DNA from: Tubiluchus corallicola
Taxonomy: Eukaryota > Priapulida > Priapulimorpha > Priapulimorphida > Tubiluchidae
DNA length: 64,000 nucleotides
Reading direction: 5' to 3'
NCBI GenBank assembly: GCA_030141605.1
Contig: JAQGDQ010000086.1
Span: 243,418-307,417 of the forward strand
Below are positions 134-57,100 of this stretch, piece after piece. Made by a program: the position numbers and the translations under genes. Each line of letters begins with the position of its first letter. Position 1 is the first letter of the stretch. A model generated the notes under the pieces. It saw only the letters and a program-made list of their open reading frames with translations. It searched no databases and was not told the origin of the DNA.

Positions 134-3100
134 ATGGCAACCGGAGGTGGCGATGCTTCTGCTGTTCCTGTTCCCACTTTTAAAGTATTAAAAGGAACAA
201 AAGTAAATGCAAGATATGCTAGTCGACGAAACGTGAGTTGTTAATTTAACATTACGAGTGATTTTATTAAATTTAGAAAAGCTAGTAAATAGATTAGTAA
301 TGTTAATTCATTTTTTGTTACTAAACGTGAAGGATAGGAAATGTGAAAAAGCTGAAATACTGTCTGGATTTGAACTAGGACCTTCTGCTTGTAGGTCTAA
401 GGCATTTGCTTGCAACTTGCAAGGCAGATACCTTTAGACCACTAGGCCACTATGTTCTCCAGTAACTAAGATTGTCCAAAGTTCAACCTTATATATAGTT
501 AGTCAACCAAATGCATTTCTAATGTTTAAATTAATCAAAATGAAAATTTATTATTAGCTAGAATGTATGAGCAATCTAACATTGGGAATGCTGAATTTGG
601 TTGGCCATTTATAAGAGATGGGCTTTGGATAACCTTGATCAGTGAGAAATATGGTGGTTTAAGGCGTCTGCCTTATAATAATAAGGTCTATGGTTCAGAT
701 CCAGATGTACTCCAACACTTTCACGTTTGCTGTCTTTCAATCAAATGTTTGGCATCAAAATTAATTGTGGATGTGTATTGGTGTAATGGGTAATGGTTAA
801 CCTGTTAATTAATGACCATGTAATTCTGGGTGTTAGTTTGCGTAGAGGTGTTTTTTTAAAAATGGTCTGCCTTCCATCACAATTATATGTTCAATATCAC
901 TTGATAAAGTACCTCAGTCAAGCCTGTTTGAAAATTTAAAAAAAGGCATCCTGTGAGAGACAGTAAAGATAATACTGATGTACTGATGTTCCACAGGCCT
1001 GTATTTGGCAACCAAGCTTGACATGCTTCTGGAGTGCTGATTTAAACTATTTGAACAAAAAGGCCCATTGATCAGGGGTAAAAATATTAGGTGGCTGAAA
1101 TAGTATTAGTATTTTATTGACCTTGATCTGAACAAAATTACCACTTTTAAACCGACTTGCATGTTCCTGCTAAATATGTACATTACAAACACAGTGTGTG
1201 GTGCCAAATCATTTGGACATTTCAAATCCACATTTTGTGTGCTGCCTATGTTGCCACCGAATCTTACCATTCCAAAGCCATGTAACTGTGCCACATAATC
1301 TGCGCATTCCTTTTACCTGCAGTTTGTATGTTGTCATGTAACCTGCAAATTCCAAACCCGTAGTTTGTGTGCTGTCACATTGCCTCCACATTCCCAATCC
1401 ACTGTATATGTGCTAGCACATTCCGACTCTAAGCCCACAGATTATATGTTGCTACATAATTCACACATAGAACCCCGCACTATGTGTGCTGCCACATAAT
1501 TTGTATAATCTGAACCCACAGCATGCGTGCTGCCACATAATTTGCACATTCCGAACCCCAGTATGTGTGCTGCCATTTAATCTGCACATTCCGAACCCAC
1601 AGCTTTTATGCTGCCACATAAACTGCACATTTCTGACTTGCAATTCGTGTGTTATATCTGCACATTCTGAACTTTGTGTGTGCAATGTAACTGCACGTTC
1701 CAAATTCAAATTGCATTAATCGCTTTGATTTACCACCTCGTAAGCAGTACAATAGTTTGTGTACCCTTAACCATTTAGTGTGACACTTTGGGCACAAAAA
1801 ATGCACTAGACTAATCATGCTGTTAATAAATTAATTTTTAAGCTCACATCGCATGTTACGATACTACAAATCATTAATAATGTTGTTATTATTGAATGTT
1901 GTTAGGTGTATCCGATGGATTCTACACCACGTGGCTACTGCATGATTATTAATAATGTGGAGTTTGATACAAGAGAGGGTACAGACGAGATTGGCAACAA
2001 TATCGAATTCACACCAGAAACTAGATATGGTTCCGATGTGGACGAAGTAAAGTTGAAGAGTCTCTTTGACCAACTGGGATATGTTGTTCACCCAACAGAG
2101 TCAAATTTGACGTCTGAGGTATATAAGTTTTGTGTAGGACAAATACTGGCCAAGTAATGTTTTGTTTGTTCAAACTAGGCTATACCTGAGGTATATAAGT
2201 TTATGTGGAACACGTGCAAATGCTATCAAATAACTTTTTGTTTGTTCAAGCTAGGCCACGTGCAAAGTCTGCATATGAGTAAATGCAGAAAATTTATGGC
2301 AACATTAGCTATCAACAAATGTTACTTATTACTGTAATTCCTTCAGTTACTGTAATTTCTGGTTTGTGATGCAGCAAGAACAGATGTTGTGTCTTGGCTG
2401 GCAGCATAGTAAGCACTGGTATGAAGCAGTGCATAAATTGTAGGGAAACTGAGCATAGTTCCTTGGCAATTGGCTGAATGGCAAGAGATATTATTGCTCT
2501 GCCACCATATCTCTTATTTCTAAAAATATTGTAAGTTCTCAAAAATTGACCACAAGATGTAGCTTTCAGTGATCCATGTCAAAGACTAAGAAATGAATGA
2601 CAGCTTCAAGTGCAAAGCATTTACACATAATGTTTTTTTCAATGCACAAAAAACATTATGTTACAAACCTGAGTTTGGAGCTCAGTTAACAAAAGTTTTG
2701 TTTTGCAAAGCATATTCGTTTACCGTATTTATTATAGTCAGTTCAAGAAATTGGACAGCGCTGGAGCTCTTTGTAAGCAAATACAATTGTATAATCCTAT
2801 TTTTAGAATTATGCTCATTTTTGCTTCCAGCAAATGATGTCTGTCCTTGAAAAGTTTGCAAAAGATACAAGGCATGTTGATGTTGATTCATGTGTTGTGA
2901 TAATACTGACCCATGGTAACAAAGGTGACCTGTTATTCACTAGAGATGGCCATTTGGACTTTGTTGAGCATATTTTGCCTTTATTCAGTGGTATGCCATT
3001 ACTTATTTTAAAAATTGTAATTAAGTATTTTAACCAGATGTAACACAGTCAAGACATGACTGTAACATGCCTAACTTTTGTGTTTGACAAGACAAGTTTA

Positions 3101-6100
3101 TGACCAGGCGCTCCCACTTGCAACACCGGTAACTGACAGGACCATTTAATCCTTGCCTAGGTATGGTTTAAGCCTTACTTTCTTTCAAAGTCTTTTAAGA
3201 TTTCACCAAAAGCTTAAATGCTTTCCCCGTGAAAGTGATTTTGACGTTTTTGCAACTCTAATGTCTTTATTGCAAATAATATAGTCATAGCTTCTTGCTT
3301 AAGCTATAGTGATATAACTGATAATTAACAAGTTATGCCACTTTGCATAAAGTCTTGGGTTTTGTATAAAAATAGCATTTGAATGGACCTTTTGTCTTGT
3401 CCTTTTCCTGGTTATGGTAAGTCAAAAAGCAAAAGTTTGATGTATGCTTTCACTATGTAGTTTTCTAACACACGCATATCTTTAAGAAAGTATTTTAATG
3501 GTAGAATAAATTCTATATAATGACAAAATTAATTCATGTTTCTAGGGCGCAGTGCTGTTCATTTGTCAGGAAAGCCAAAAATATTTATCATTCAAGCTTG
3601 TCGTGGAGGTAGGTAACCAGTGAAATTGTTTTCATTTTGGTATCTTTTATCACTAAAGCCTTTGCAGCAACTGTGTAATAACACAATTCCCCAATTCATA
3701 AAATGACAGCCTTTAACAAATTTTACAACTTTAATTTGGCATTATTAATAATTGTGAGTTTCACATTCAGAGTTTCAGTCAAGTAATTTTGACATAGGTA
3801 TAGGTGCGGACCCAATGATTGCAGTGTAGTGCTTGATGACTGAGTTTGAGAATATTAATGATATCTAATTAATGAATATTAAATGAATATTAATGCTAGT
3901 TAGCGAACAGATGAGTGAACTGCTTCAGTTCTTACTCTGGGCAATTTTATGCTGAACATGGCCTCTCAAGCGAAGAACGTATTCATATTTGAATGTAACT
4001 TAGATACTTCTGCCAGTTCAGTGCATGATAGATGATGAGTTATGCCAGTTTGCTACAACCACGTAATTTTAGTATTAAGCGCCTGTCGCTGAATTGTGGT
4101 TTCTGGCTTGCAGGATTCCGAATCGTATAAAAAGGGACATACCTGAGAGTTGAGCTTCATCCTTTTGGCTACGAAAAATAACTTATGAGCCTTAAGAGAG
4201 ATATAATTTACTAAAATAAGTTTCTGCATATAGTCTTAAAATCTTTTGTTAAAATTCATTTTGTCTATTGTTAACAGTGAAAATTAGCTGCCCTTTTTGG
4301 CAAATTAGTTGTATCACCATTTCTGTGAACAATTACCAGATTCAGGTCCTGCACTGTACACGCACAAGCCATTTATTTCTCTCTCTGGCTCTTGTAGTAT
4401 TATACATTCATGGGCGTATTATCTGCCGCTGTACATTACTATGTGCTGTACGTACATGGGCACATCTTTGCTGCTGCGCATACTTATTATGTACTGTACA
4501 TACATGGGCACGTCTTTGCTGCTGGGCATACTTATTATGTACTGTACGTACATGGGCACATCTTTGCTGCTGCGCATACTTATTATGTACTGTACGTACA
4601 TGGGCACATCTTTGCTGCTGTACATACTTACTAACCAGAAAGAACTCAGAAGTCGATTCTTTTTTTTCTACACAGATAAGAGCCAGCAGCCAAATGAAAC
4701 ATCTGCGTCATCAGAAAAAGGTTTACCTAAAGATGGTGCTGGACACGGAGACGACAGACTAACGCAAGATGCAGCTTTTAGCTTTGTTACAAAACAAAGG
4801 TTACCACAGAAGAAGAAGCGGCCAAATGTTGGAGATATAATTGTGTGTAGAGCATCTGTGCCAGGTAGATTATTACTTTTTCTTGAAAACTTGAGCAGTT
4901 TGTTTAGGTAAGACTTGTCAAATTCGCAATATTTAACCCTGAGTGAATCTTGCATTTGGAAACGTTGAATTCAATGATGCACTGTTAGAATTGAAATAGA
5001 AATTGTGTAGCCTGCTAATGTAGCATATTTGAATTAATAAGCTGAAGGTATATGACTCAGTATTAGTGTGAGATATTTCAAATTTCCGTGTTGTTCATTC
5101 AAGAGATTTTGAAAATTTAAAATCTGTGTTCAATCATAGTTAGTTTACTAAACTTATCTGTTTGCAGTTAGATGCTTGCTTCTCATTGTTATTTAATACT
5201 GTTTAATGATCTGCAAGCTAATATCCAGGATTCAGTAACAACCAAAAGAACTACAACTTGTATCAAGACAACTAGAAGTCTCTTTTAGCCAGTTCAGTTT
5301 CTTTGTATACTGTATTTCCAAAATAATGGAAAAAATTGATTTTCATGTTACCAAATATTCATTATATTATATTTCATCATATCTTGTCGTATAGGGTAAC
5401 GAAAAAGAGGCGAATAAAAGAAAAGAATTACAAGAATTAATTTCCAAACTAAATTTTAGCACGTGGTATTTGGAAATGTTGTGCTCTTTCTTTTTTTTTC
5501 TTCGTGTTTTGATTGTGGGTCTTTTTTATTCATTTTTGCTAATATTCTCTGTTGTTAAGAATTAATCCGTGTTATCATGTAGGCTATGCTTCAATGAGAT
5601 CTCCAAAGAAGGGTACATGGTTCATAAGAAAACTAGTGAATGAATTTGCTCAAAATGCTAGCTGTCTGCATATTCATGAATTAATGACTAGGGTAAGTTT
5701 GTGTTGTGTTTTTGATCTGTTTTAACTAACATGAACGTGTGATCCTGATTACTTTGAAGAATGTAAGCTTAAAGGAAAACAGGATGATATTTCACTTCCT
5801 TCCCAGTTCGTAATATGGTAGAAACACATTTTAACACCTATAAGAATGCCAAAGTTTGTCTGATAATTAAATAATAGATTAGAAACTGAGTTAACAGTCG
5901 ATGAGTCAATTAATGATGACATCACGACTGAACGTAATTTTTAACAACACAGACATTCCTTGATCATGTTCCACGTGTTTGCAAAAAAGAAAGTTGAAGT
6001 ACTATGCTACTGTGTACAACATTCAGTGTGATGTACAATAGCTTCAAGTTTACGTTGTGCTCCCGCTTGAGCTCTTGAACATGTGCACTATGTCATCACC

Positions 6101-9100
6101 GAATACCTCTGAACTGAGAGTTACTGTATCTGTTTTTGTGCAAACACGTTTGCGAGACGCAGGTCCTAGTGCCCATCGGAGTAACGAAAGGCAAAATGCA
6201 TGGAACTAGCCGCGTGAACGCAAAATTACCATTATGTGGTAATAATTCTTTCACATAAGTCATTCTTGAAAAAAACTAGTGTGTTCCCTTTCAATATTAT
6301 ACAGGGTAGATTATTTTGATCTACAGTTTAAGATTGGATCCGGATTTGCTTTAAACCAACAACTGAAACGTGGTAAAAGTAAAACCTTGCATTTGAGATG
6401 AAATGGTCTATAGCTGTATACAATCTATCTGTTTCATTTTATAGGTAATAGGTCCCTCTAGATAAAACTGTATGTTAGTTTATCACGTATGAAAAATTCT
6501 GATTTTGCAACATGCATCGATCTTCCTGCAGTTACTTTGGTACGATTTGTAAGGAGAGTGACATCCTCCTGAAGTTGACCGGCTCACTCAGTACACATTT
6601 ACTAAATTAAACAAATTATTTTAATGTATAACTATTGTGCAACGTGCAGGAGTGGAGCATAATATTTGCCTCCCTTTGTTATCAGTGCGCTAGTAATGTG
6701 CACTGGCCAGTGCCACACAGTAGATACTAACAGAACTGTAGTGTTGTTAAAATTCAGTGGCAATGAAGAAATTGTATGATTTGTGTTCACAAACAAAAAC
6801 AACCACTGGTGCATTTTGAATAACTACTCTGTTATGTTAATAACAAGCATTCATTTATTACACCCTGAAAGCCTGAAAAAAGAAGTTTTATTACACTCTG
6901 AGAGCCTAAACAAACAAGTTATGTGGCAAAATTTAGTGTTTTCCCCACAAGGCAATTTGACTGAGTTGTTATATACCAGACTTCTTAATTACTTAACTGC
7001 AAGCTTTATCAGTGAATCAGTTACCGCAGCCAGCTCAGCTAGTACAGCGCTGAGCACTATTAATACAGCGTAGGGATTTGGGGAACTAAAATGATCTATG
7101 TTATCCTTTTTGTGTTTATTTGTATCTTCGTTAGTGGCCTGAAACAGCTTTTCAAGGTTAATTGTTACTAGTATAATAACCTTTTTGCATAATTAGCCTC
7201 CTCTTAAAGAAATGATAGTTTCTTGTTTGTAAGTCACCTCTAAGTCAAAAATGGTTTGGTCTGCCATCTCCCTACTGTCTGTTAGCCTGACAGACTTTCA
7301 AGACAGTGGTTAGTAGTCTGCTAGTATGTACCTACTGACTATTGTCGAAGTGCAAAGCAGAAGATGACATTTAAATTTTAAATTCTCTAATATTAGATAT
7401 CGCATTACAAATAATGTCTGCATTTTCATTATTGGAACCAGGTAGCCATATTAGGTCGAGTACCTAGGTATCGATGGAAACAGTACAGAACTGCACAAAC
7501 TTTTCCTCTTGTAGTCTATCTGAAACCTCTATAAAGATTTCTGAGCTGTACTTCATTATAAAATTTAAGTAATGTGTGTGCGTGCGGTGTGTGTGTGCGT
7601 GCGTGCGTGCATGCGTCTACCTCAAACCTCTGTAAAGATTTCTGAGCTGCACTTCATTATAAAATATGAGTAATATGTGTTTGTGTGTGTGTGTGTGTGT
7701 GGTGTGTGTGCATGCTTGTTAATAGTGACTTGTTGTTGTGTTGTACAAATGATAAACTCTGTACAAGTAATGCTTTGTAAAACCTTTTTTAGGAATCATG
7801 TATTTAGCACATTTCTATGTCATCCAAAAAGTGGTTTTGCGTCGACAGTAGTCAAAATAACCAGTTCCATGTTTTTGGCGAGTGAAATGGAACACAGAAA
7901 AAAGACAGCGATTAAGGCACATTAGCATATCTTTCTTAATCCTTAACATAGATATACTGCTGCTTTTGTTAGAGCAGCCTAGGCCTCAGTTTTAAATATT
8001 TATGGAATTGTACTGTTTTAGGTGCACCGTCAAGTGTTTGAATTGAAAGGCCGTCAAGAGAGGATGCGTGCAGATGGTGTTGGTTTTGAAAAGTTTCTTG
8101 TTGCTCAAGTTCCTGAATTGGAGTCTTCATTGATGACTCGACTGTTCTTCAATCCCCCACTTGTAAGTGCCTAATTTGCTGCCGTAAGCATATATATATA
8201 TCTTCCCAGGAATTTTTCATTACAATTATTATTTGATGAACATTAAGCAAACTCTTTGGCATGTACTTACTCGTAGTGAGTAAAGATGTTAATACTGAAT
8301 AATTCTGTTGTGATTTTATTACAAGCTTCATTCATAGTTATATCTTCACTGCCTTGCCACTTGCCAGCCTGCCAGTCCAAATTCAGTAACCTATTTTAAT
8401 CACAGGATAAAATTTTGAATCAGATACAATTTTAAATTTACCAAAAAAGTTTTGGCTAGTGAGTACTGCATATTTTTAACTTTCACTTATTCCAGTGTAA
8501 AACAGTTTTAACCCAGACTTTGTCTCCAGGACTGTGAATAGCAAGTTTGATTTCATTTTTACAGTCCACCACAAAAAATGTAGTGTACTTTCGTTTTTGA
8601 GTTGGTTTTTCTACTAAGTCACAAAAGTGTCCATGCTTTAGCATTTTTATTATGCAAACAATGATATTGACAACAATGATGATGATGTGATGATCCATTT
8701 TCTTTTTGTAGCAAATATCTTTTTATAAACAGCAGAAATTTTTCAAATATTGTTTAGTTTAGTTTAGTTTAGTTTAGCTTAGCTTAGCTTAGCTTAGCTT
8801 AGCTTAGCATAGCTTAGCTTAGCTTAGCTTAGCTTAGCTTAGCTTAGCTTAGCTTGGTTTAGTTTAGTTTAGTTTAGTTTATTCTATTTTCCATAACAAA
8901 TTATGTGATTTTTGACATCCAATGTAAGTTGTTAAAATGTTATTAGAAAATTTTTTTCCATTTCAGGAAACTGGTCCAGTTGGATTGGGTACAGCACTTG
9001 CTTACTGGCACTGGATTGGTTATCCTGCAGTTATCAAAAATGATTTTGTAAGTGAAATATCAAAGTGGAAGGAAGAGAACAGTTTAGAGCATGTTATCTT

Positions 9101-12100
9101 GAAACAGATTATTGTCTATTCGCAAAGTTGTCTAGGAACACTGCCGGGAAATAAGCATGTCTCTGACGAATTTGAAAAGTTTAAAAAAGTTGCTCATGCA
9201 TTTAAAATCACGAAAGACATGGCCGGGATGAAAGGTCGGAAATACGGAGTTACTGTTTGGCCTGTCAAGTCAGACAAGAAGAAATTCAATGTTGCAGTGG
9301 ACTACCCAACTGCTATACAAGCTATTCCGGCCAACACTAATAATATACGACAGCAGCTAGGAGAAGTAGCTGCATTTCACAAGGCCTTGCAATGCATTTT
9401 GGTACAAGAAAGTGTTGATTCACCTGACAGTGTTCCATTTGTATTGCTACCATACGACGACGAATGGGAATCACTTCGGGCCGTCCTGAGAGAAGCCTGC
9501 AGACAGTTTAAAAAGCCTAACTTTGCCTTCAGTTCCTGTTTAAGGAGTCCAGGTACTGACTGGGATTTTCCTGCCTGGGTGAATGAGTCAGACACTAGTT
9601 ATTTTAATCTCACTGCTGAGATGCCAGTCGGATTTCTAATAGCTGAAAGGTTTGTATGGTTTTCTAGCTTTAGGTCCCCTGCTAGCTAGTGAAATTTCTG
9701 AAAAAAACTGTCAAATAATAATTGCAAATCTGCTTCTTACAATAGTTTAATTTCTTAACGATGTACAATTTGTTAACAGGTTTCTTTGCACTTATATTTT
9801 TTTGGTATAGGTATGCTGGACTCTACTTCCACCACTATTCAATAAATCTTCAGCAGCGCTTGAGTCGGTTTAAACGACCAGGTGCACAGCAAAACATTGA
9901 TTCGGATAGTGATGATGACGACGATGACGGAGATGATGAACTGGTGGAAAAAGACAGTGAGGCATGTAAAATATTTACATATTGTTCTGCCGTCAGGTTC
10001 TCGTAGTCGGGTAGTTGTGATAGCCCCTGGATGGTTTAAACTAGAGCTATTGGTTGCAGGGATGAGAATTTTCCGCAGATACGCGGAATTCCGAGTTCTT
10101 GGAAGATCAATAGTGCCATTTTGGTAAATTGCGTAAATTCGTTGAGCAAATCTTTCGGGGTTGAACCTCGTTTTCGTCGAAATCGTAACTGAAACATTCA
10201 GTAGCATTTTTCGAGTATTTATCCAGCTTACCTTTTATCTCCTATATGTTAAAAATCACTGAAACAGTTTGGCTAAAATAGTTAAAATAAAGCGTAAATA
10301 TCGTTTATTTGATAATCTGTACGATTTGTAGTATTTCTTTTACAGCAATGCGGCATATCTTCATTGCTGACAAATGTGAAGCTTTGAGACCTCCAGACAC
10401 AAACAACCGAAATACCAAAGCATAATTTGAATAAAACCAAGTTTAGTTTTATAATTTATGAAATATAGGCAACAAAATATATACAAAATAAAATTTGTTA
10501 ATTTTTTGACGCTTCACGATCATATGTATCATGTATCCTTGATAGTTGGGTATTTTAAATTATGCATGAAACAAGGTACAGTAATTGATGTTTTAAGTCC
10601 ACTTAGAGGCTCTCTGAGGTCACAAAATTGCAATTTGTTGCTGGCTCCAAGGGGGCTTCACCCCCTTTAACCCTATGGGGGCTTTGCCCCTCAACCCCAC
10701 TGGGGCCCCCAAACCTCCGGCCTGTTTCAGAGTTTTTTGCAATTTGTCATTCTCATTCCTGCGGTTAGCGATAGGCCTCGGTTCGAATACCATATCCTGA
10801 AACGAGTTTAGTGAACCAAACGACTGAGAGACATTTACCAGCTTTCAAAGAGCAGCATAAGTCCTTTCCAAAATCTTGACCAAAGTAGTAATTTTATATA
10901 ATTAAAATTTTAATGTTTGAAGTAATCGAAATGAACAAATAGTTGGCTAAACATAAAGCATAAGAAAGAGAATCTACCCTTGAGGGTTCACCACTCCGTT
11001 ATATTAGTGCTGAAACAGTTTAAAGATTGGTCTTGGGAGAGTGGAAGCAGGCTTGTCCTGTTTGGTACTCAAACCAGCCAGCAACCACTGAACTCAAGGA
11101 AACAGAATATGCACTTATATTTATAGACTTTGCACAGGTGAAGCAGAGTACTAATTTAAATTTAAGCCAATCAGAAAGTATGATGTGTGAATTTTATGCA
11201 GGTAAAATTATTACCTTATTATCTACAAGGGTGTTTTATTTTAAAGTGACTTTGAAATAACATACATGCCATATATCTGCATCCGTGAGTGAGTGAAAGT
11301 TTGAACTCAAAACAGGGTGAAGTCAGCCCTGCAACAATATGTTTGTGTCACACACAGAATGGGTTGTTTGTGAGCTCATCTTTTTCTTGCGGTGCGAAAC
11401 AATATAAGCTAATAAATGTAAAATTATTTGTGTCTGAACTGTCTCGCTCAATTTAAAATCGTTAAACGGTAAGCACCGCATAATTAATTTGTCAAAATAA
11501 AATTGTAAACCAAGTAAGGTTTGACACAACATCTCATGAAATGCTTGTGATGTGCTTTGTCATCTTGTGTTTAAGCTTTGCTGGGTAATCCTTTCTGGCA
11601 AAAAGAGAGATAGTTAATCATATTCAATAATCTCACTTTTAATTTAAAAAGACAAATGTTAAGAAAATTGTCTTTATAGAAAATTTACCAATTTATGTGT
11701 TTTGGCTTTAATTTCATTTATTATTTTTTTGCAACAGCGTGTTAAATTTACAATCAACAAACTGCTTGTTCTGCTTCCATCTTCCTGCTATGTTCTTGAT
11801 TCACTGGAAAGCGTAGTTGGTATAGAAGTTATAGGTAACACAGACGACTTACAGGGAGACTCTGCCAAGATCTTTCTTTCAGACAAGCAGCGATACGTTG
11901 GGCATAGTACAGTTTACAAGCTGGATGATGACTACTTTATCGCTGAATTTGCTACGCCATTACGTTGCCTCAAGTTCATGAGAGACCGTGGTGTGCTAGG
12001 TGAAGATAGCAATTTGCTCAGCACATTTTATGAACAGTTCCGTATTAGGCTGGAAAGTTTGCTAGATGAGAACACCATTTGGGAGAAAAATTTTCATGTA

Positions 12101-12190
12101 GTTAGTTATGATGACACACATACGACTCTTGTGGCCGAGTTGCGTAGTATTTTTGCAGCCCAACGCTCTTGCATGGGTGATGAGGAGTGA
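134..12190 (+). CDS. Caspase-STING-STING fusion protein (about 753 aa, 10 exons)
   Basis: Exons: 134-232, 1906-2118, 2831-2990, 3546-3608, 4676-4864, 5583-5692, 8022-8162, 8967-9649, 9811-9961, 11738-12190 (stop TGA). All phases join and the total is 2262 nt. Order: short prodomain (residues 1-45), caspase p20 with catalytic His in LTHG (H132) and Cys in QACRG (C176), Asp-containing linker (179-220), p10 with VPGYASMRS and KKGTWFI (about 225-325), first STING domain (326-505), second STING domain (543-753). There is no signal peptide, membrane helix, CARD or DED. An in-frame TAA at 104-106 supports the ATG at 134. A possible acceptor at 116-117 leaves room for an upstream exon outside the window. 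Caspases are Cys proteases activated by proximity. STING binds cyclic dinucleotides as a dimer. I infer a cytosolic nucleotide-triggered protease. Weakest point: the exon 9 to 10 junction needs a GC donor at 9962-9963 (or CTG|gtgg at 9944). A two-gene reading is less likely because exon 7 has no stop and exon 8 has a standard acceptor. Confidence 0.85.
365..456 (-). repeat. tRNA-derived SINE-like relic in intron 1
   Basis: Read on the minus strand it has an A-box-like GGCCTAGTGG, then CTGCCTTGCAAG, and a B-box-like AGTTCAAATCC. A duplicated stretch within the anticodon region breaks the cloverleaf, so it is not a functional tRNA gene. Confidence 0.5.
645..715 (+). repeat. Second tRNA-like relic in intron 1
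   Basis: TGGTGGTTTAAGGCGTCTG resembles an A box and GGTTCAGATCC a B box, about 35 bases apart. It is degenerate and lacks a clear acceptor stem. Confidence 0.4.
1190..1705. repeat. Degenerate tandem repeat, unit about 40 bp
   Basis: Variants of tgctgccacataatttgcac and attccgaacccacag recur roughly every 38-41 bases, most regularly from 1480 to 1640. It lies in intron 1 and creates spurious cysteine-rich frames on both strands. Confidence 0.75.
4408..4632. repeat. 48-bp tandem repeat in intron 4 (about 4.5 copies)
   Basis: The core catgggcacatctttgctgc starts at about 4455, 4503, 4551 and 4599, a constant 48-base step, with a diverged copy before it. Because 48 is divisible by three, the repeat is open in several frames. 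It ends just before the polypyrimidine tract of the exon 5 acceptor. Confidence 0.85.
7516..7712. repeat. About 100-bp tandem duplication with (GT)n tails
   Basis: A segment beginning ctatctgaaacctctataaa at 7516 is repeated from 7617 as ctacctcaaacctctgtaaa. Each copy runs into a GT/GTGC-rich stretch. It lies in intron 6 of the caspase-STING gene. Confidence 0.75.
8753..8881. repeat. Pentanucleotide satellite TTTAG/CTTAG
   Basis: About 25 units of a five-base repeat: TTTAG at both ends and CTTAG in the middle. It sits in intron 7, about 85 bases upstream of the first STING exon. Confidence 0.9.
8967..9649 (+). other. First STING cyclic-dinucleotide-binding domain (residues 326-505)
   Basis: One exon encodes the whole domain. 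It opens with GLGTALAYWHWIGY, matching the STING lid helix, with Tyr344 at the place of human Y167. AGMKGRKY matches AGIKDRVY, putting Arg416 and Tyr418 at human R238 and Y240. VDYPTAI matches EYATPL, with Thr440 at T263 and Asp437 replacing E260. FHKALQCIL and LRAVLREACRQ match the C-terminal helices. Human R232 corresponds to Met410. The last ten or so codons of the exon (EMPVGFLIAER) already begin the second STING unit, so the two domains are separated by only about 37 residues. Confidence 0.9.
9610..12190 (+). other. Second STING domain (residues about 543-753)
   Basis: It starts at the end of exon 8 (PVGFLIAER), continues in exon 9 (YAGLYF, INLQQRLSRF) and finishes in exon 10. INKLLVLLPSSC matches the STING strand LYILLPLDC. 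SDKQRY places Arg655 at human R238. IAEFATPLRCLKFM is close to human EYATPLQTLFAM, with Glu673 at E260 and Thr676 at T263. An acidic insert (Asp/Glu-rich, about residues 580-600) lies between the lid helix and the first core strand. The protein ends RSCMGDEE, without the TBK1/IRF3-recruiting tail of vertebrate STING. Confidence 0.88.
10000..10800 (+). mobile_element. Non-autonomous TIR element (about 10058-10760) inside a tRNA-like sequence
   Basis: GGGATGAGAAT at about 10059 and ATTCTCATTCC at about 10749 form imperfect terminal inverted repeats of about 11 bases. The flanks (ggttgca on the left, gcggttagcg on the right) look like two halves of a tRNA-like unit: the right half has the B-box-like GGTTCGAATACC and the left half has the GTAGTCGGGTAGTTG block. 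The inside holds no coding frame. It has a GC-rich run of short hairpins at 10649-10711 (GGGGG/CCCCC arms). All of this lies in intron 9. Confidence 0.5.
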
Positions 12191-14514: not shown

Positions 14515-15300
14515 TTAGTTACCATATCCGTTTCGCCTGGCACTAGCTGGAAGTTGGCTCCTGCTACCGGCGTGCACGGGAAGGTCATCAAGTTTGACAG
14601 CTTGGAACTGCAGGTTGGGCGTCCTCTGGTACCCGTAAGCAGCACCTTGTTCGGTTTTGCCTTCTCCAGATGCGGTCTGGCTGTACTGTTGAGTTGCATC
14701 CTGTGAGGCTTGACGAGAAGCGCTGAGTTCAATACCGGCTTCACCGGAACCACTGCCAGTACGTTCGGATGAGCTTTGCTCTTGTTGGCGAGCATAGCCT
14801 GACCTGTACCGAGAACCGATGACGATTTGTTCTGTCTGGGCAGCGTTTACGGCTTGTCTTGGTGCCTGAGCTGCTGCGTCGTTCCTCCATCTGTTGAAGT
14901 CAAAAGCCTCAACGTTGATGTACAAGTTACCAAAAGAGTCGATGCCGAAAGCACTGGTGTCGATGTTGCCAAAGTTGTTGACATCAATGGCTCCACCACC
15001 AAATCCTTGCAGACCTGCAGCACGGAAAGCGCTGGTGGCACTAGAAGCGCCTCCTCCTGATACTGCGCCACCACCTCCGGAAACTCTGAACCCTCCACCA
15101 CCTCCAGATACTGCAGCACCACCTCCGGAAACTCTAAAGCCGCCACCACCTCCAGATACTGCAGCACCACCTCCGGACACCCTTACGCCACCTCCACCAT
15201 GTGCACCTCCTCCCATGTTGCCATAGCCTGCCATACCATATCCTTGGCAGAGCGCGCTGCTAATGCAGCCTAACAGCAGAAGGGCAACCACAGACTTCAT
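14515..15300 (-). CDS. Secreted glycine-rich repeat protein (261 aa)
   Basis: One coding exon. The start is MKSVVALLLLGCISSALC, a clear signal peptide with cleavage expected after the Cys or Ala. Residues about 20-95 are Gly-rich repeats built from VSGGG and GGGGGFRVSGGG units with alternating AAVSGG. Residues 95-150 are less repetitive (DVNNFGNIDTSAFGIDSFG). The C-terminal half is Ser/Gln/Glu-rich (SSERTGSGSGE, ASQDATQQYSQ). There are no cysteines after the signal peptide. An acceptor AG abuts the base before the ATG, so an upstream 5'UTR exon is expected and found at about 16249-16303. Composition suits an extracellular structural or matrix protein. I do not recognise a named family. The plus-strand proline-rich frames over the same bases are shadows. 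Confidence 0.85.
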   Translation of the reverse strand: MKSVVALLLLGCISSALCQGYGMAGYGNMGGGAHGGGGVRVSGGGAAVSGGGGGFRVSGGGAAVSGGGGGFRVSGGGGAVSGGGASSATSAFRAAGLQGFGGGAIDVNNFGNIDTSAFGIDSFGNLYINVEAFDFNRWRNDAAAQAPRQAVNAAQTEQIVIGSRYRSGYARQQEQSSSERTGSGSGEAGIELSASRQASQDATQQYSQTASGEGKTEQGAAYGYQRTPNLQFQAVKLDDLPVHAGSRSQLPASARRNGYGN

Positions 15301-15754
15301 CCTGCAAAAATGTATTTTAATAACAAAAGGAAAAATCTTGAATTTCTGTTTAAACGAACTTTTAAATTTGCAAATAGCTGAATCTGAATATTAACACATA
15401 GTTACACTGTGTGCTAATATAGAGTAACATTGATATTGATCTTCTCAGTGTGCCATCAATATATCTAGCTATAATTTAATTTTGCAAGTGTCGGTGCTTC
15501 TCACTAGACATACACTGGGTACTTTTTTCGTGTTGTACGACATGAGTTTTGAACGGTTTATATCTGGTTTGTTTTACAATATACTCAAGAATAGCATTAT
15601 TAATTTTGGAAACATTAATGCTATAGCTAGAGTTAACGAGCTAGAATTTATATTAAACATCTGAGGCATGAATTTTGTTAGACTATTTTACTTATATCAG
15701 GCTCGACAATAATGGAATTACCTAAAAATAACTTAGCAGTAAAAAAAGCAATAA

Positions 15755-20446: not shown

Positions 20447-23194
20447 TCACGGATCATATTGGTCAGTTTCGTCGTCTCCGTCCTGGTCCATAAGCGAAGA
20501 TTCGTAGTAACAATAATAAATTTTAATGTCTCCTTTGTCTAGCTCCAATGAGGGAACACTGCCCCAATACGTACTGCTAGTGAATGAATCTTCACAATCC
20601 CATTTGAACCACTCCACGCTATCTCTCATTCCCAAAACCTGGAAGGATACAAAACTATAATGAAGTCACTGAATTTTTTCCATGCACTAGCTATCATTTA
20701 CTCAACCGAAGAAAGAGTTTTTTCATTTATTGCAGTTTGACTTGCTGAATATGGATGGTTACTGGTTTTGTCATTTGTTTATTATTATATAAGTTACTAA
20801 TGTTTTTATTTTTTTGGCATAATTGATGTTAAGGTTCATCTTATAGAAAGGCTTTTTCAATATTCTGGCTTTCGTCGCGGTTTAAGAACACTTTGGCTCC
20901 AGATATTTAGGTCCGGGATATTTGAGCTCCAGCATTTGAATCCTGGATACCAGGGCACTAGACAATTTGGGCCCCAGATATTTGAACCCTGGATATTTGG
21001 ACCCCAATCAATTGTGCACAGACATTTGAGCCCCAGGCATTTGGACCAAAGGCTTTTGATGTCTTTTCATTGGACATTTAGAAAAATAGATGGATAAACA
21101 GACAGACAGACAGGCAGACAGACAGAGACACAGACAGGCAGACAGAAATGAATCTCGGGCGTGGCATGGTGGGGATGAAGCAGACGGGTTTTCACTTACC
21201 CTTTGACAAGCGCTTCCATGTCTGAACAGGTAAAACGGCTTGTTGGTTGGCAATCGTATAGGTTTACTAGCGTCTCCGTCATTTCTGCAGCAGTAGTATA
21301 TCTTCGTGTTATGATCATATTCACCGTGTGGCACGCTGGGAGAATACTAACAAATAAAAAATTAAAAAGCTTTTAATCAGATTTATTACAGGCACAGGTC
21401 TATCCTTAGGTCTATCCTGTTTCTGTAAGTTCTATATCGCACAAATACTGCTTTTTTACTTGCAAAATATGTTCGGTCTTACTCCGACTGTTAAAGTTTA
21501 TTTGGAACATGGTATGCAGAAATGTAGTCAGTCAGTCAGTCAGTCAGTCAGTCAGTCAGTCAGTCAGTCAGTCAGTCAGTCAGTCAGTCAGTCACTCCGT
21601 CAATCAGCTTATAAGTCTACAGTTTAAATTACTATGAACAGAGTTTTCATGTAAACACCTCATTCATACCGCGTTCTGGTTAAACAGATCTTCGTCGTCC
21701 CAGAAAACCCATCCGTCTTGAAAACCAACTGGACAAGCTTGATGGTAAGCGCGGAAAACGCAATATTCTCCTTCAGGCCACAACTCTGGTCTCTCGTTGG
21801 TATCCTGTTCATCCTCATTTTTGCTCACGTCTTCCTTCATACAAAAATGTTGCTCCATGTTGTTTTTTCTTAAAGACACATAATCGCCGTAGCATTTAAT
21901 TAGTTCCATGGCACGCCACAATACTTTTAAAGAATAGTGAATGATGTTGTGTGTTTACGTTACAATGAAGAGACGATGTAATCACAACATGCCTATAAAA
22001 ATATGCTACTTTTCTGAACTACGGTATTTTTAGGTACTGACACTGTTAAAATGGCAAATGTTACTGTGTTTTTCGAAGCTGAGCAGGTGTCAGGATTGAA
22101 AAGAAAAATGAAATATCATATAATCGTGTTTGTGTTTTTTTCGTAAAGTGCAATACTGTATTCTAAAAAAACTCATTATTTCGAAGTACTGTGGACTTCA
22201 AATATTCGTAATTCGTGTGATGCTGACGTTAGCATTTATTTTAACCTTACATTCATTAGATACGGCAATATTTTTGGATCAGTGGGCTCTTGAAGACAAA
22301 CTGCAAAGATTCATAGCTTGTGCTTGAATCATCTATAGTCGTCAACGTACTTGTATCAGTGCATATAGTTTCTAATTTAATACAATCATTTAACATCAAA
22401 TAATTTCGAACAATTTTAAGTCAAACAATTTAACGTAAAGGTGCACTACACCTTTTCTATTTTTTATTTTTTCCTTTTTTCCCCTTCGTTTCTTTTTCTT
22501 CTGCATAGTTGATGAACGTTCTAGTTATTAATCCGCTTTAAAATTCGGACTGAAAATGTAGTGCTTAATTTTTATGGACAAAATTTTTATGGATAAAGTT
22601 ATGTAACTGATTTTACTTATACTAATACGTACATTGATATTGAATGAACTATAGCCTGGGCTGAAATACAGAAGATATATAATTGTGCTTATAGCCTACT
22701 CGTATTTTCCAAAAAAATGTAGGGGATTGCTCCATTCATTATTAGGAAACCAATCCTCTGTGTCGTGATACCGCCATCCACTGTTCCATCCTGCAAATCC
22801 ATCGCTGGTGGAACACCCACTTAGAGGTTTGGCCAATCCATAAGCTCCTTTAGGCCACTGCGCTGTCTCCAGGTCCAGTTGTGAAACCCTGTCTGCTCCA
22901 GCTGTGGAAAAAGTAATGCCAAAATTGAGGTACTGGATAAAATTTTGATTTTTCTGATTTTACAAAACAGATTAATTCCCGCTTTCATCCAATAATTTCA
23001 TCAAGTTCAACTTTGCAAGTTTCGTTGCTTGCACAGCAATAGCCATCGATGTCCAAATACATATCAATACTTCATTTAATATATAATTGGAAAAAACATA
23101 TGTATAAAGGACTGTACATATCGTATTTACCTGGTGCCAAGACGAACAACTGGAAAACGCTGACGAACAATGATAGCGCCCAAAACAAAGCCAT
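20447..23194 (-). CDS. ApeC (apextrin C-terminal domain) secreted protein A, 267 aa
   Basis: Minus-strand exons: 23194-23131, 22901-22700, 21868-21670, 21346-21200, 20638-20447 (stop TGA), with intron phases 1,2,0,0. Residues 1-20 are a hydrophobic signal peptide (MALFWALSLFVSVFQLF). The rest is one ApeC domain: WPKGAYGLAKPLSGC and GWRYHDTED in exon 2, QHFCMKEDV, WPEGEYCVFRA and WVFWDDED in exon 3, SVPHGEYDHNTKIYYCCRNDG in exon 4, GMRDSVEWFKWDCED and IYYCYYES in exon 5. It ends in an acidic tail. ApeC proteins are secreted; characterised chordate members bind bacterial cell wall. The pathogen-recognition role here is inferred. Introns 3 and 4 carry GTCA and CAGA microsatellites. Confidence 0.9.
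20895..21045. repeat. Short-period degenerate tandem repeat (about 20 bp)
   Basis: Variants of ggaccccagatatttgagccc recur in intron 4 of ApeC gene A. The reverse complement of the same unit appears at 56560-56700. Confidence 0.6.
21090..21150. repeat. CAGA/GACA microsatellite
   Basis: Runs of cagacagacaggcagacaga immediately beyond the exon 4 donor of ApeC gene A. Confidence 0.85.
21527..21594. repeat. (GTCA)n microsatellite
   Basis: Seventeen near-perfect GTCA units in intron 3 of ApeC gene A. Confidence 0.95.
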
Positions 23195-31993: not shown

Positions 31994-34900
31994 TTGAAGT
32001 TATGAGCCTCCAATGTGCAGGAAAATTTCTCGACCTTTTAGTGTTCCGAAGCAGCGGGCCAAAATAAAAATGTCCAAAACGCTGTTAAAATAGCCTAAAG
32101 AATCATTCCTGAAAGTTTGGCAGCTGTATTCAGTCAGTACCCTTTTTGGCTAAGAGACTGGACTAGTGGAGGGTTACATTTGCCTTCATTTTGTCTGTAT
32201 TTTAACATCATTAATGGCTGTTCATCATGATACACCAAGATTGATATAATTTTTATTAATTATGTCGTCCTTTAACGTTGTCCTTGTCACTGCAGTGGTT
32301 TGACCAATAAACATCAAAGAAGATTAAGAATGTGATAAAAATGTTTGTTTGAATTCTTGCCTTTTGGGACCATTTATAGCAAAGTTCCTTCACGTATTCG
32401 TTCCGTGTATTCGTAGCGCATAGAACTTTGTCATATTTTATTGCATGACCACTACCTTATGTTTACCCAATCTTCATTTTTACTGTTCCCGCCATCGTCG
32501 TTCTCATCGTCACCATCTTGGTCGTTTTTTATGAAGCTGTTCATGTGTTAGTTTGTAGAAATTTCATCTACTGCACGTTTTGCCATTGTATTTCAAATTG
32601 TTTGTTCAGTAAATCAATTACGTCTACTAGTACTCGTTGCCACTACCAAAATTAAAACGCTTTATTTCTTTTCCACTTCTAATTAAAAAAATTAATAAAA
32701 ATTTTATGATTCAAGATGTGTACTACCTAACGTGAAAAACCTGCAAATATTCATGTTCTAGAAAAAAGTACGTAATTGGTATTGCCAATTTGCTAACTCT
32801 TACTCTTTGGCAGTTAGACTTATATTTGAACATGTAGAAAGGCTTGTCGGCTGGTAGTCTCATAAATTTGTTGGCGTCTCCATCGTTCCGGCAGCAGTAC
32901 CACATTTGTGTGTTTATGTCATACTCTCCATGTGGTACACTTGGCATATACTGCAAAATAAAAACGTAACTTATAATCATAATGGCCTGATGTGACAACA
33001 AATTGGTGATCGTTCTAGCCAATAAGATTACAGGTTCCATTCAACAACTAAACATATTCTTCTTTTTTAATGTAGATGTACTTGCTTACCTACCAGTGTA
33101 TTCAGTGATGCTGAATTAAGTTACATTACATTGTGTAAGGCCACTGAGTGTAATGCTTGTAGGTTAATTAATCTTAATTAAAGGATGCTAATTTATTGAC
33201 AACAATTTATACTGCAAATCACCGCATTACAGAGTAATGAAAGAGCAAGCATAATGCAAAATCTGTTTGCAAGAACTTGACTGACTGGCAGAATTGTTCG
33301 CGTGTGGGCTAATTAACGCTGTTTTGCCAACGGCGTTAAATACTACGTAGCGCGCACACCAGAGCAGACGAGACAGAAAATTAAATACGTCTAATGAAAA
33401 TATTTGTGACAAAGTTGATAAAGCTGCGTTTATCGAGTTCCCTGACGAGCAAAAATCTGTTCCAGACAGATTTGGCATTGTGTGCGCCCTGTAAAATGTG
33501 CTGAATTTTCTGTCTCAGACAAGCTCCTAATACTCCCGTGTGCAGGTTAGATACAAGGCCGCATCAGACAAAACTAGACCAGATCCCTAAAAGCAATTAT
33601 TTTGTTACACGTGAATAGCTCGCGTCATACAAAAATTGCCATATGCAGGCAAATTTTGTCTGACACGGTTTGCCTGCGATAGTTTGTGGCAAAAAAGCAA
33701 GTTTTTCACAATGTGCTAGTAGTAGTATTACAATTAAGTGGTTTAGTACAATGAAATGATGCAAAAAAGAAATAAAAAATCCACAACGCAACTTGAGTTC
33801 AAGTTTTTAAATTTGTACCATTGCTGCATAGTTAAACATGAACACAGCTCTGTACTCACAGCGTTAGCGTTGAACGCGTCTTCATCGTCCCAGAAAATCC
33901 AGCCCTGTTCAAAGCCTACAGGACATGCTTGGTGATACGCCCTGTACAAGCAATAGTCTCCTGCTGGCCACAAATCTGGACTATCACTGCCTCCGCTGAC
34001 ATCTTCCTTCATGCAAAAATGGTGCTCCATATTCTGGTCCCTGCAGATGGTTTTTTAATGAAAACTGAGAGTGTTAAGTGGTGCTAACCAGACATCTGGA
34101 GTGTGTGTGCGGAATAGATAAAATCGGTTTAAATTGTTTTCAATGCACCTGTTTATCAGACCTGCAGGTGGATAAGGCATAACGCATTCCAATGCATTCA
34201 TAACCAAATTAAAAGCATTTATGATGTCAAGATTTGAATATTCAGCTTACTAACATGATAACTTACACACTAATTCACCCCAGGTTATAGTAAACTACTT
34301 AATTTTGCTGATAGCCATTTTGTAAATATGTAAAATATATAAAGTTTAAGTTTAAAGTTCTATTTTACTTTTGCACCTGTAGTTCGGATTTTGCACTGTC
34401 GCATTCACCTCCAACAGTGTATGTTTTTTAACATTCACTGGCTGAGTATTTTGTTATGATTCCCAACATTATGATGGCCAATAAAGATGTTGCTTAGTTA
34501 CTGCAATTTATTCAACAAAATTGTCACATATGAGAAAGAATTTAAACAGTGTTTAGTATCTTGACTAATGATACTCCTGCAAGCTTTCCAGAATCTGAAA
34601 GAACACCTAAATTGTTTAATTGCTGCAACTTGTGTAAGTTATGTCGTTCTGTGTTTAATATTTTAAATGTTCCAATGTTCTCATGCGTCTAACACGCACT
34701 GCAGGTATTTTTTATTTGTTTAATATGGCTTCATAACTTGAGAAACACGTGAGAAGCTTTCATATAGGTTCTTTTTATAAACCTGTTAGCCAATCACTTA
34801 GTACCGTTATAAGATTTCAGCTGTTCACGTGTTGATGGATCTCTATGCTTTTTCTTGTTCAAGTTCAGTCAAGTTACTAGGGTTTTTTAAGTTTATTGTT

Positions 34901-54100: not shown

Positions 54101-57100
54101 AAACTCAGAGACTTTTTACTTAATGGCCAACGTGGGCCAACTTTTGCTCTTTCATCTTCCCAATAAAACAAGCCGTTGTTTAAGGACATTACAGTTTAAT
54201 TAGTTTGTAAAGATACTTATGACTATTTAACAGTACTATTGATTAGTTGCGTTTTAAGACGGCATTACAGTGTATCATCTCAGTTTATACAGCAGCAAAA
54301 ACACTACCTATTTGAGGCATTATACTTTTATAAAGCATTTTTATTTGTTATATGATAAAGCCTAAAGTGAACAGTCAGTAAAGCAATGAATATTGACTAA
54401 TTTCTACGGCGGAATCTTTTGGCCGTCTTAATGTTTCTTTGTGCACACTAACTGAAATATAAGAACATTTTGATCGTAGCTTAGCTACGGATTACCATAT
54501 AAGCGAGTTGATATTTTGTACCGTTGAACTGAGATTATTGAAATTAAAGGTGTGGTATTAGAAGTAAATAAATCATAGAGTTTTTGATGGAGTTGGCATA
54601 ATATATATAGGGGTAGTCCATCTATATCTCATGGAGTTTTTGATATAAATAGACATTATAATTTATGGAGTACCAAAACACACTTATTCTGGATACAAGT
54701 TTATCAGTGACACATTGATGATATATTGACTAGAATCTGCCAAACTTTTAGTGTATTATAAATCTTCTCATTACTGAACTGTTTACTAACATGTTTACTA
54801 AACATGATTATAAACTGTTGATAATGAGTGTGCTGGCACAGACAGCAAAGGCCAGTAGTAGTTAGCCAAAAGTACTAACCTACATTCTTGTTTAATTTCA
54901 TTGTGTGATAGACAAGTGTCTTTGGTAGGCCTATGTATATATAAGCAATAAAAATGTTCAACAAGCACATCATGCTATTTAGAGAAATTAGAGGCTGCCA
55001 CTGAGAATTAGAATTTTAAATAGCATTTGGTATTTTGACCTAGCATGGTCAGAAGCATGGTGACTTGAGTAAATAGATAAAAGCAAAAAAAGTTTATAAC
55101 ATAGAAGAATACCATCTGTAAGGTAGACATACATGTTCAGCTTAAAATGAAAAAAAAGAAAACAAACATTTGTTGATATTTGTTAGTAATAAATTACTGT
55201 TATAAAAGAAATAAGCATTTACGGAAAATGAAAGGCCAATCTCTTTGCCCATTTGACATCTTGAAAAACGTGTGTGTATAAACTGAATGAAATTTGTGGG
55301 AGCGTGGGTTTTGTCTTCATTTTTTCCAATTGACTGTACATGTGCATGTATTTCTAAACATTATACTTGTAGTCTTGGTCTGTATATAGACGTATTTATA
55401 ACTGTATTGTCTTCATTTTTTCCAATTGACTGTACATGTGCATGTATTTCTAAACATTACACTTGTAGCCTTGGTTTTGTATAGACGTATTTATAACTGT
55501 ATTGTCTTCATTTTTCCCAAGTGTCTGCCCATGTACATCTATTTCTAAACATTGCACTTGTAGCCTTGGTTTGTATAGACGTATTTGTGACTGTATTGCC
55601 TTCATTTTTCCCAAGTGTCTGCCCATGTGCATCCATTTCTAAATATTATACATGTAGCCTTGGTTTGTATAGACACGTATTTATAATTGTATGACAAGTT
55701 TATGACACCCTTTTGACAGTTATCTGAAGTTTTTAGTATTTCCAATGAACTTACCACATCATAAAAGCAGTGAGTATGATTTTCAGGAACTAGTACCTGT
55801 AATAATCCTGTTAATAATAATGCTTTGAGCCGTAAGTTCAACTTCATTGTTTTTATTCCAGGAATTTTTGCTTACCTCAATTACTTGGTACCAAAGACTC
55901 GCAAAGAGATCCTTGACGTGCTGATCGCTGGCTTGAAACGACTTGAGTACAGAGGATATGACTCTGCAGGTGTGTCTGATTTGTCATTCGGTTTTCTTTT
56001 ACTCCCCTCTCTCTCTCCCTCTCTCCCGCTCCCTCTCCTTTTTCTTTTTTACACGTTTTATTTGTTGTGCCTATCTTTTATTGAAAACTTCCCTTTTACT
56101 AAAATATCCTCACGTAAGATTAACGTTATGAGTCATATGTCATGACTATTATCAGCAACTTCAGTTCCTTGTTGTCTTTATGCTATTTACTTTGTCATTT
56201 TTACCAAGTCTTATCAGTTTGCGCAAGATTATTATAGCTGTGAGTAGTAATAGCTTTTTCGTTTGCTTTTATCTATTTAACATTAGAGCAAATCTACTTG
56301 GCCTAGTGAGTAATTACCATAATAAGCAACTAATTCCATTAGTTGCCTGACTGAGTTTATGTAATTAAATAGTTTTAGTATTTTTGCCATGGCACTTTCA
56401 TTTTCAGGAGTTAGTACTACAGTTATTTAGATGCACGATCTTCGTTGTGATCAATTTTAGTTTGGTCGTAATCAAATAATTATGTTGGAAATGCGTTGAA
56501 TATTTTCGCACTTTGGCCTAGGGGTCAATGAAAATGCAGACAAAATGTTGTGGCCAAATTGTTTGGGGTCCAAATACTTGAGACTCGAGTGTCTGGCACT
56601 TGGTTGGGTCTAAGTATCCACCGAGGAGCCAAATGTCGGGACCCAAGTATCCAGGACACAAATATCAGAGGCCTAACTGTCTGGGCACAAGTATCTGTGC
56701 AGCCATGACAGACTGTCTGTTTTTCTTACTAACTGTGCCATTTTCGACTACGTGTTATGGCTGTAAACTGTTTGTATTAAGGTTGCTTTCTAAAGATGTC
56801 ACTGTTTTGTGTGGACTTTGTTGAAACAACAGAGGAACAGGGGAATTTCCCAGTGTGATTTTTGGTCTGTTTTAGCCTAGCACACATAGTAGTGTACTCC
56901 AGACATTTTTAATCTTTTATTTGATTAACGCACGTTTCTTATCATATCAACTTGTAGCTAGTAAATTACCAATGAAGCTAGTAAATTACCTATCATTATT
57001 TCACTGACATAAAATAGTGGTGACGCTTATCTCGTGTTTAGTTAGTTTGTAGTGTCAGAGTGGTGTACGTGATATATGTAAACGAACTACAGATTTAATT

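Follow-up and report, generated by a model that had tools for sequence, protein, structure and literature searches.

A caspase-STING-STING gene and its copies in the genome of the priapulid Tubiluchus corallicola

The DNA analysed here, hereafter the window, is a stretch of 64,000 nucleotides from the genome of the priapulid Tubiluchus corallicola (contig JAQGDQ010000086.1, positions 243,418 to 307,417 of the forward strand), and one of its ends carries, on the + strand between positions 134 and 12190, a gene that we rebuilt as ten exons with compatible phases (Table 1). Joined together, these exons give a frame of 753 amino acids plus a stop codon, in which a caspase is followed by two STING domains, called STING1 and STING2 in what follows. 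A fused gene of this kind had been proposed in an earlier note made by a model from the letters alone, and its ten exons and their compatible phases were recovered in our model, whose weak point is the donor of exon 9. All nine splice acceptors are AG, and the donors are GT in eight cases out of nine.

Table 1. Exons of the caspase-STING-STING gene in the window, a candidate polyadenylation signal and a more distant copy from elsewhere in the genome (a slash marks a cleavage position)
Feature	Location	Strand	Content
Exon 1	134..232	+	Start codon, 33-aa N-terminus
Exon 2	1906..2118	+	Caspase p20 begins; R73 (S1-pocket arginine)
Exon 3	2831..2990	+	Caspase p20; catalytic His132, codon 2912-2914
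Exon 4	3546..3608	+	Catalytic Cys176 within QACRG, codon 3599-3601
Exon 5	4676..4864	+	p20/p10 linker, candidate self-cleavage site LTQD/A (Asp210, codon 4768-4770); p10 begins
Exon 6	5583..5692	+	p10; R247 (S1-pocket arginine)
Exon 7	8022..8162	+	p10 end (LFFNPPL); frame stop-free up to the GT donor
Exon 8	8967..9649	+	STING1 ligand-binding domain; by reading, first part of the first helix of STING2
Exon 9	9811..9961	+	Remainder of the first helix of STING2 (by reading), acidic linker; GC splice donor
Exon 10	11738..12190	+	STING2 core; stop codon
Candidate polyadenylation signal AATAAA	12686..12691	+	Read from the sequence
Fifth copy, C2192 (L015, L016)	G000:C2192:105874-114375		Caspase plus two STINGs, more distant

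The caspase half is matched by the Pfam profile Peptidase_C14 from residue 42 to residue 320 (E 5.8e-44), over positions 1-232 of the 233 of the profile, so that the whole length of the domain is covered. When the protein was aligned with solved caspases, H132 (in THG), C176 (in QACRG), R73 and R247 fell on the corresponding residues, which we take, from known caspases, to be the His-Cys dyad and the arginines of the S1 pocket; the caspase is thus complete and has both its catalytic His and its Cys, as had been claimed. The best solved matches include caspase-9 and CED-3, the top one being a caspase-2 construct in which p10 comes before p20 in the alignment. The p20/p10 linker reads LTQD and then A or S in all four copies of the gene that were aligned over it, a candidate self-cleavage site lying behind the Asp. 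No prodomain was found in the 41 residues that precede the caspase domain, and a search of the genome for CARD gave zero matches but its controls were equally silent, which makes it uninformative, while no search was aimed at DED. At its other end, the caspase finishes with LFFNPPL and the ETGPVGLG of STING1 follows directly.

The Pfam profile STING_LBD matches two stretches of the STING half of the protein (E 3.2e-18 for the whole protein), and scans of single exons placed one of them in exon 8, at E 8.5e-8, and the other in exon 10, at E 8.8e-10; each exon passes the curated cut-off by itself. The profile search of the joined translation that the earlier note had suggested as a check therefore finds both Peptidase_C14 and STING_LBD. 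A STING1 profile made from five copies and compared with the PDB gave 6wt6 at E 5.7e-12 and further chains at E about 0.002, the former being, as we assume, a metazoan TIR-STING from oyster and the latter human STING. In the STING1 alignment, Y344, R416, Y418, D437 and T440 correspond to Y167, R238, Y240, E260 and T263 of human STING, a numbering and a set of ligand-pocket roles that we take as given; the five compared pocket positions are kept, one of them as Asp for Glu. All five copies share R416, Y418 and D437; at position 344, four have Y and C2192 has F, and at position 440, two have T and three have S. The STING2 profile also retrieved many STING chains from the PDB, weakly (best E 9.6e-4), and two of its stretches, EFATPL, which aligns with the E260-L265 stretch of the human protein, and QRYVGHSTVYKL, are invariant in all five copies. 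The four N-terminal membrane helices of canonical metazoan STING are lacking, the N-terminus being the caspase, and the highest 19-residue Kyte-Doolittle mean (1.53, within STING2) shows no stretch resembling a membrane helix, in keeping with the soluble protein that the earlier note had proposed. We rejected the identity of the protein as a TIR-STING: Pfam found no TIR in it, and none of the four TIR matches in the genome is on a contig with STING.

A survey of the genome (G000; 343.5 Mb in 2344 contigs, the window lying on C1844) showed that the gene belongs to a family. Searching with the caspase half gave 28 matches, 27 of which are on C1844, C414, C2160, C235 and C2192, the other one, on C2094, being another caspase; the 14 matches of the STING half are all on the same five contigs. 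In each of the five, caspase exons, STING1 and STING2 follow one another on one strand, which makes at least four copies beyond that of the window, and since four more copies share this order, it is not a product of chance. Ten-exon models without stops could be made for C1844, C414 and C2160; for C235, exons 2-10 were modelled and exon 1 was matched (the start of its exon 5 was placed at a non-AG site and, by reading, an AG two bases upstream preserves the frame). Two further copies read whole with Pfam gave Peptidase_C14 at E 1e-43 and 5.9e-44 and STING_LBD at E 3.9e-21 and 8.5e-21. In C235 (L014), caspase exons 4-5 are repeated downstream of the copy, at about 25.8-26.6 kb, as a partial duplication.

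The copies also bear on the start of the gene model and on the end of its exon 9. The start methionine and the residues TGGG are conserved in all four near copies, the start context is gccATGG in C1844, C414 and C2160, and 9-10 codons ahead of it the frame of these three is closed by a stop; an additional coding exon may exist further upstream of exon 1. For exon 9, the GT donor CAT/GTAAAA was rejected because it breaks the frame, and the GC donor GAG/GCATGT was preferred because C414, C2160 and C235 have CCAG/GT at the homologous place and in the same phase.

The genome holds 22 STING_LBD matches on 10 contigs. On the five of these contigs that are outside the family, no caspase match lies near a STING, those of C1793 being about 48 kb off. 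By reading, the STING loci of C818 (L020, - strand) and C460 (L017-L018, + strand) look like tandem STING-STING genes without a caspase: in both, a single open frame leaves the end of one STING and continues into GAGLAWSYYLG, a sequence that resembles the first helix of the next STING. Because these loci also look tandem, the tandem STING may predate the fusion to the caspase. A long open frame between the STING exons of C460 reads like a reverse transcriptase. As for relatives elsewhere, the exon 8 profile gave 57 pattern matches in the genome_contigs collection and the exon 10 profile 151 in viral_contigs, none of them confirmed, and neither collection is one of animal genomes as such.

A rival reading is that a caspase gene and a neighbouring tandem STING gene have been wrongly joined, and it turns on the junction between exons 7 and 8. 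An in-frame ATG that could start a separate STING gene is present in the window copy, within the open stretch that leads into exon 8 and 30 bases upstream of that exon, but in none of the other four copies, and an AATAAA that could end a separate caspase gene is found within intron 7 of C2192 alone. Read-through from exon 7 also suits two genes, since it reaches a stop after 3-11 residues, at the same place in the three recent copies (C414, C2160 and C235) and elsewhere in the window copy and in C2192; for the same reason, a caspase-only form could arise by intron retention. Against this, the GT donor of exon 7 and the AG acceptor of exon 8 are both in phase 0 in all five copies, including the one whose exon 8 is only 50% identical to that of the window (C2192, where the donor comes from a weak exon 7 match), and intron 7 is merely 213, 212 and 212 bp long in C414, C2160 and C235 (804 bp in C1844, 904 bp in C2192). 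In the window, intron 7 contains by reading a run of TTTAG/CTTAG-like pentamer repeats (positions 8755-8880).

The divergence between the copies bears on the same alternative. When the window was compared with C414 or C2160 by blastn, some 2.8-2.9 kb aligned, broken into 10 pieces, and each of the 8 longest covers an exon (one also spanning the 161-bp intron 8); most of the intron sequence is unalignable while exon boundaries and phases still match. At a synonymous divergence (Ks) of 0.53-0.59, the ratio of nonsynonymous to synonymous divergence (Ka/Ks) of the caspase half is 0.23 against C414 (95% bootstrap interval 0.16-0.33) and 0.21 against C2160 (0.15-0.30), and that of the STING half is 0.15 (0.10-0.22) and 0.18 (0.13-0.25), respectively. 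All upper limits of these intervals are below 0.34, and purifying selection acts on both halves in these comparisons; against C235, the ratios are 0.31 for the caspase and 0.18 for the STINGs, without bootstrap. Plain haplotypes as the source of C414, C2160 and C235 were rejected on the flanks upstream of the gene, the side that the comparison covered, over 10 kb in general and 6 kb in C235: these three share 592-1011 bases there, in short blocks, and the flank of the window aligns with none of them. Because only short blocks are shared, the three look like dispersed copies in which caspase and STING were kept together, and a pair that stays intact in copies with differing upstream flanks speaks against two neighbouring genes. 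We thus regard two wrongly joined genes as very improbable; the claim of the earlier note that a single gene runs from the caspase into the STINGs holds, with the phase-0 junction in the five copies and the same order in four more.

The fifth copy, C2192, has 50% and 58% identity with the window in exons 8 and 10. There, tblastn found exons 2, 3, 4, 6, 7, 8, 9 and 10, of which 6 and 7 weakly (E 0.11 and 0.042), and did not find exons 1 and 5; its exon 2 peptide alone scores 19.8 bits with Peptidase_C14, below the cut-off of 21.4. LSADG stands in place of LTHG, HGCRG in place of QACRG, and the second arginine is missing (SYSNSDG). With the catalytic His lost, QACRG altered and this arginine missing, the caspase appears dead by its sequence, and C2192 probably encodes a pseudo-caspase-STING-STING with well-kept STINGs.

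On balance, we favour, with some reserve, a real single caspase-STING-STING gene, whose family counts five or more copies and whose product would most likely be a cytosolic caspase gated by cyclic dinucleotides. STING domains bind cyclic dinucleotides at their dimer interface and many then oligomerise, and caspases are activated when they are brought together. If the exons are spliced in vivo as modelled, a cyclic dinucleotide, made either by the host with a cGAS-like enzyme or by a bacterium, would bind the STING module, which would close and/or oligomerise and bring caspase domains together; the caspase would then cut itself between p20 and p10, behind LTQD, and become fully active on downstream targets. 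The p10 end, where STING1 is attached with almost no linker, presumably lies near the caspase dimer interface, as in known caspase structures, and because both domains share one chain with almost no linker between them, ligand binding should alter how the caspase domains meet. Gating by cyclic dinucleotides is plausible since STING1 keeps the pocket positions and since the genome holds 9 matches to Mab-21, a family that includes cGAS; judging from these matches, enzymes that make the ligand may be present. STING1 and STING2 may pair within one chain. By analogy, and as a tentative extension of this proposal, the protein could be an animal one-protein counterpart of an effector of the cyclic-oligonucleotide-based antiphage signalling system (CBASS), in which the two STINGs of one chain would pair as an asymmetric pseudo-dimer to read a single cyclic dinucleotide, this receptor being joined directly to a caspase, and the version with a dead caspase could tune the others, as cFLIP does with caspase-8.

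Several findings weigh against a ligand-gated caspase with two STING domains, beginning with the gene model, which is least secure where exon 9 ends: the donor there is GC, and eight in-frame donor/acceptor pairs are possible for the exon 9/10 intron, so that exon 9 could end elsewhere (CTG/GTGGAA with the same acceptor, for example, makes it shorter by 18 bases), all of them keeping the STING2 core. STING1 lacks the arginine that human STING has at position 232. At the positions of R238 and Y240, STING2 appears to be off-register by one in the alignment, and because it fails to align cleanly there, the two ligand-binding domains announced by the earlier note may make up one asymmetric site. 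AlphaFold run without an alignment gave a mean predicted local distance difference test score (pLDDT) of 33 for exon 8 and 50 for exon 10 and hence no structural support. One copy, C2192, has a dead caspase, and the three recent copies compared with each other (Ks 0.07-0.17) have Ka/Ks values of 0.27-0.73 for the caspase and 0.58-0.83 for the STINGs, which may reflect relaxed or diversifying evolution.

What the protein does once its ligand is bound allows other readings. It is possible, though we hold it to be doubtful, that limited cleavage by the ligand-gated caspase feeds NF-kB or other signalling and does not lead to cell death. PMC8204762 mentions, in one sentence and in the title of a paper that it cites, that silkworm STING acts through the caspase Dredd on NF-kB, and that paper is also cited in PMC8592570; because silkworm STING is reported to work through Dredd, NF-kB is an equally possible output. 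The genome search for gasdermin gave zero matches, which goes in the same direction but says little, its controls being silent too, and the substrates that could tell these outputs apart are unreadable from the sequence of a caspase. The cell death output that the earlier note had drawn, together with a bypass of TBK1, IRF3 or NF-kB, is unsupported. Less probable still, and in our view unlikely, the STING module could be a brake that holds the caspase inactive, or a sink that binds dinucleotides without switching on proteolysis: conserved STINGs beside the dead caspase of C2192 and the deviation of STING2 at R238/Y240 would fit this, but His, Cys and both S1 arginines are kept in four of the five copies.

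Other features of the window and the genome are listed here for completeness. Two matches to ApeC, the apextrin C-terminal domain, lie on the - strand of the window (21008-21346, E 1.5e-17; 32723-33040, E 6.5e-16), and an open frame rich in glycine, whose start (MKSVVALLLLGCISSALC) resembles a signal peptide, occupies 14515-15390, also on the - strand, with no Pfam match at E 0.01. On the + strand, exons at 55780-56145 and 60311-60646 recall, to us, glucosamine-fructose-6-phosphate aminotransferase, their single frames having no Pfam match at E 0.01. In the genome, homeodomains reach 97% identity with Antennapedia, and three of these lie less than 66 kb apart on a single contig, a Hox cluster that places the animal among the bilaterians and not the sponges; the peptide trailing one homeodomain resembles what we take to be the Lox2/Lox4/Ubx group, which suggests a protostome.

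In animals, STING is usually several steps removed from its effectors. If our proposal is true, the gene would provide the shortest animal route known to us by which a nucleotide second messenger leads to proteolysis, parallel to the effector-STING proteins of bacteria, and a testable model for how tandem STINGs may read an asymmetric ligand; a natural fusion is also consistent with the functional link reported between STING and a caspase in an insect. In the open PubMed Central literature, no title or abstract opening among the matches listed names a caspase-STING fusion, and our claim of novelty is limited to these matches.

Among known systems, the TIR-STING fusions of animals and of bacterial CBASS come closest, since an enzyme-type effector domain precedes the STING ligand-binding domain in them too and since no solved structure matches STING1 better than 6wt6, but the window protein has a caspase instead of the TIR and two STING domains. 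With canonical metazoan STING (TMEM173), it shares STING_LBD and, in STING1, the equivalents of Y167, R238, Y240 and T263, whereas it is tandem and has neither the four-helix membrane domain nor, by reading, a vertebrate-type C-terminal tail. Like the initiator caspases caspase-9, caspase-2 and CED-3, it has a full caspase domain with the dyad and the S1 arginines, but no CARD or DED was found in the protein, and a C-terminal sensor would take the place of their prodomain. STING has repeatedly been fused to other modules: passages of the literature describe a fungal PNP-STING fusion (PMC12424679), TRADD-N fused to STING (PMC8195603) and, next to TM- and TIR-STING, the trypsin-, hydrolase- and deoxyribohydrolase-STING of bacteria (PMC10732462). 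One of these modules is thus a bacterial protease, but its trypsin fold is unrelated to caspases, and the passages concerned describe no caspase fused to STING. Finally, SAVED, which PMC8204762 describes as a fusion of two CARF domains and which belongs to CBASS effectors, offers an analogy without any claim of membership, the folds being unrelated: there as here, a dimeric nucleotide-binding domain occurs twice in one chain.

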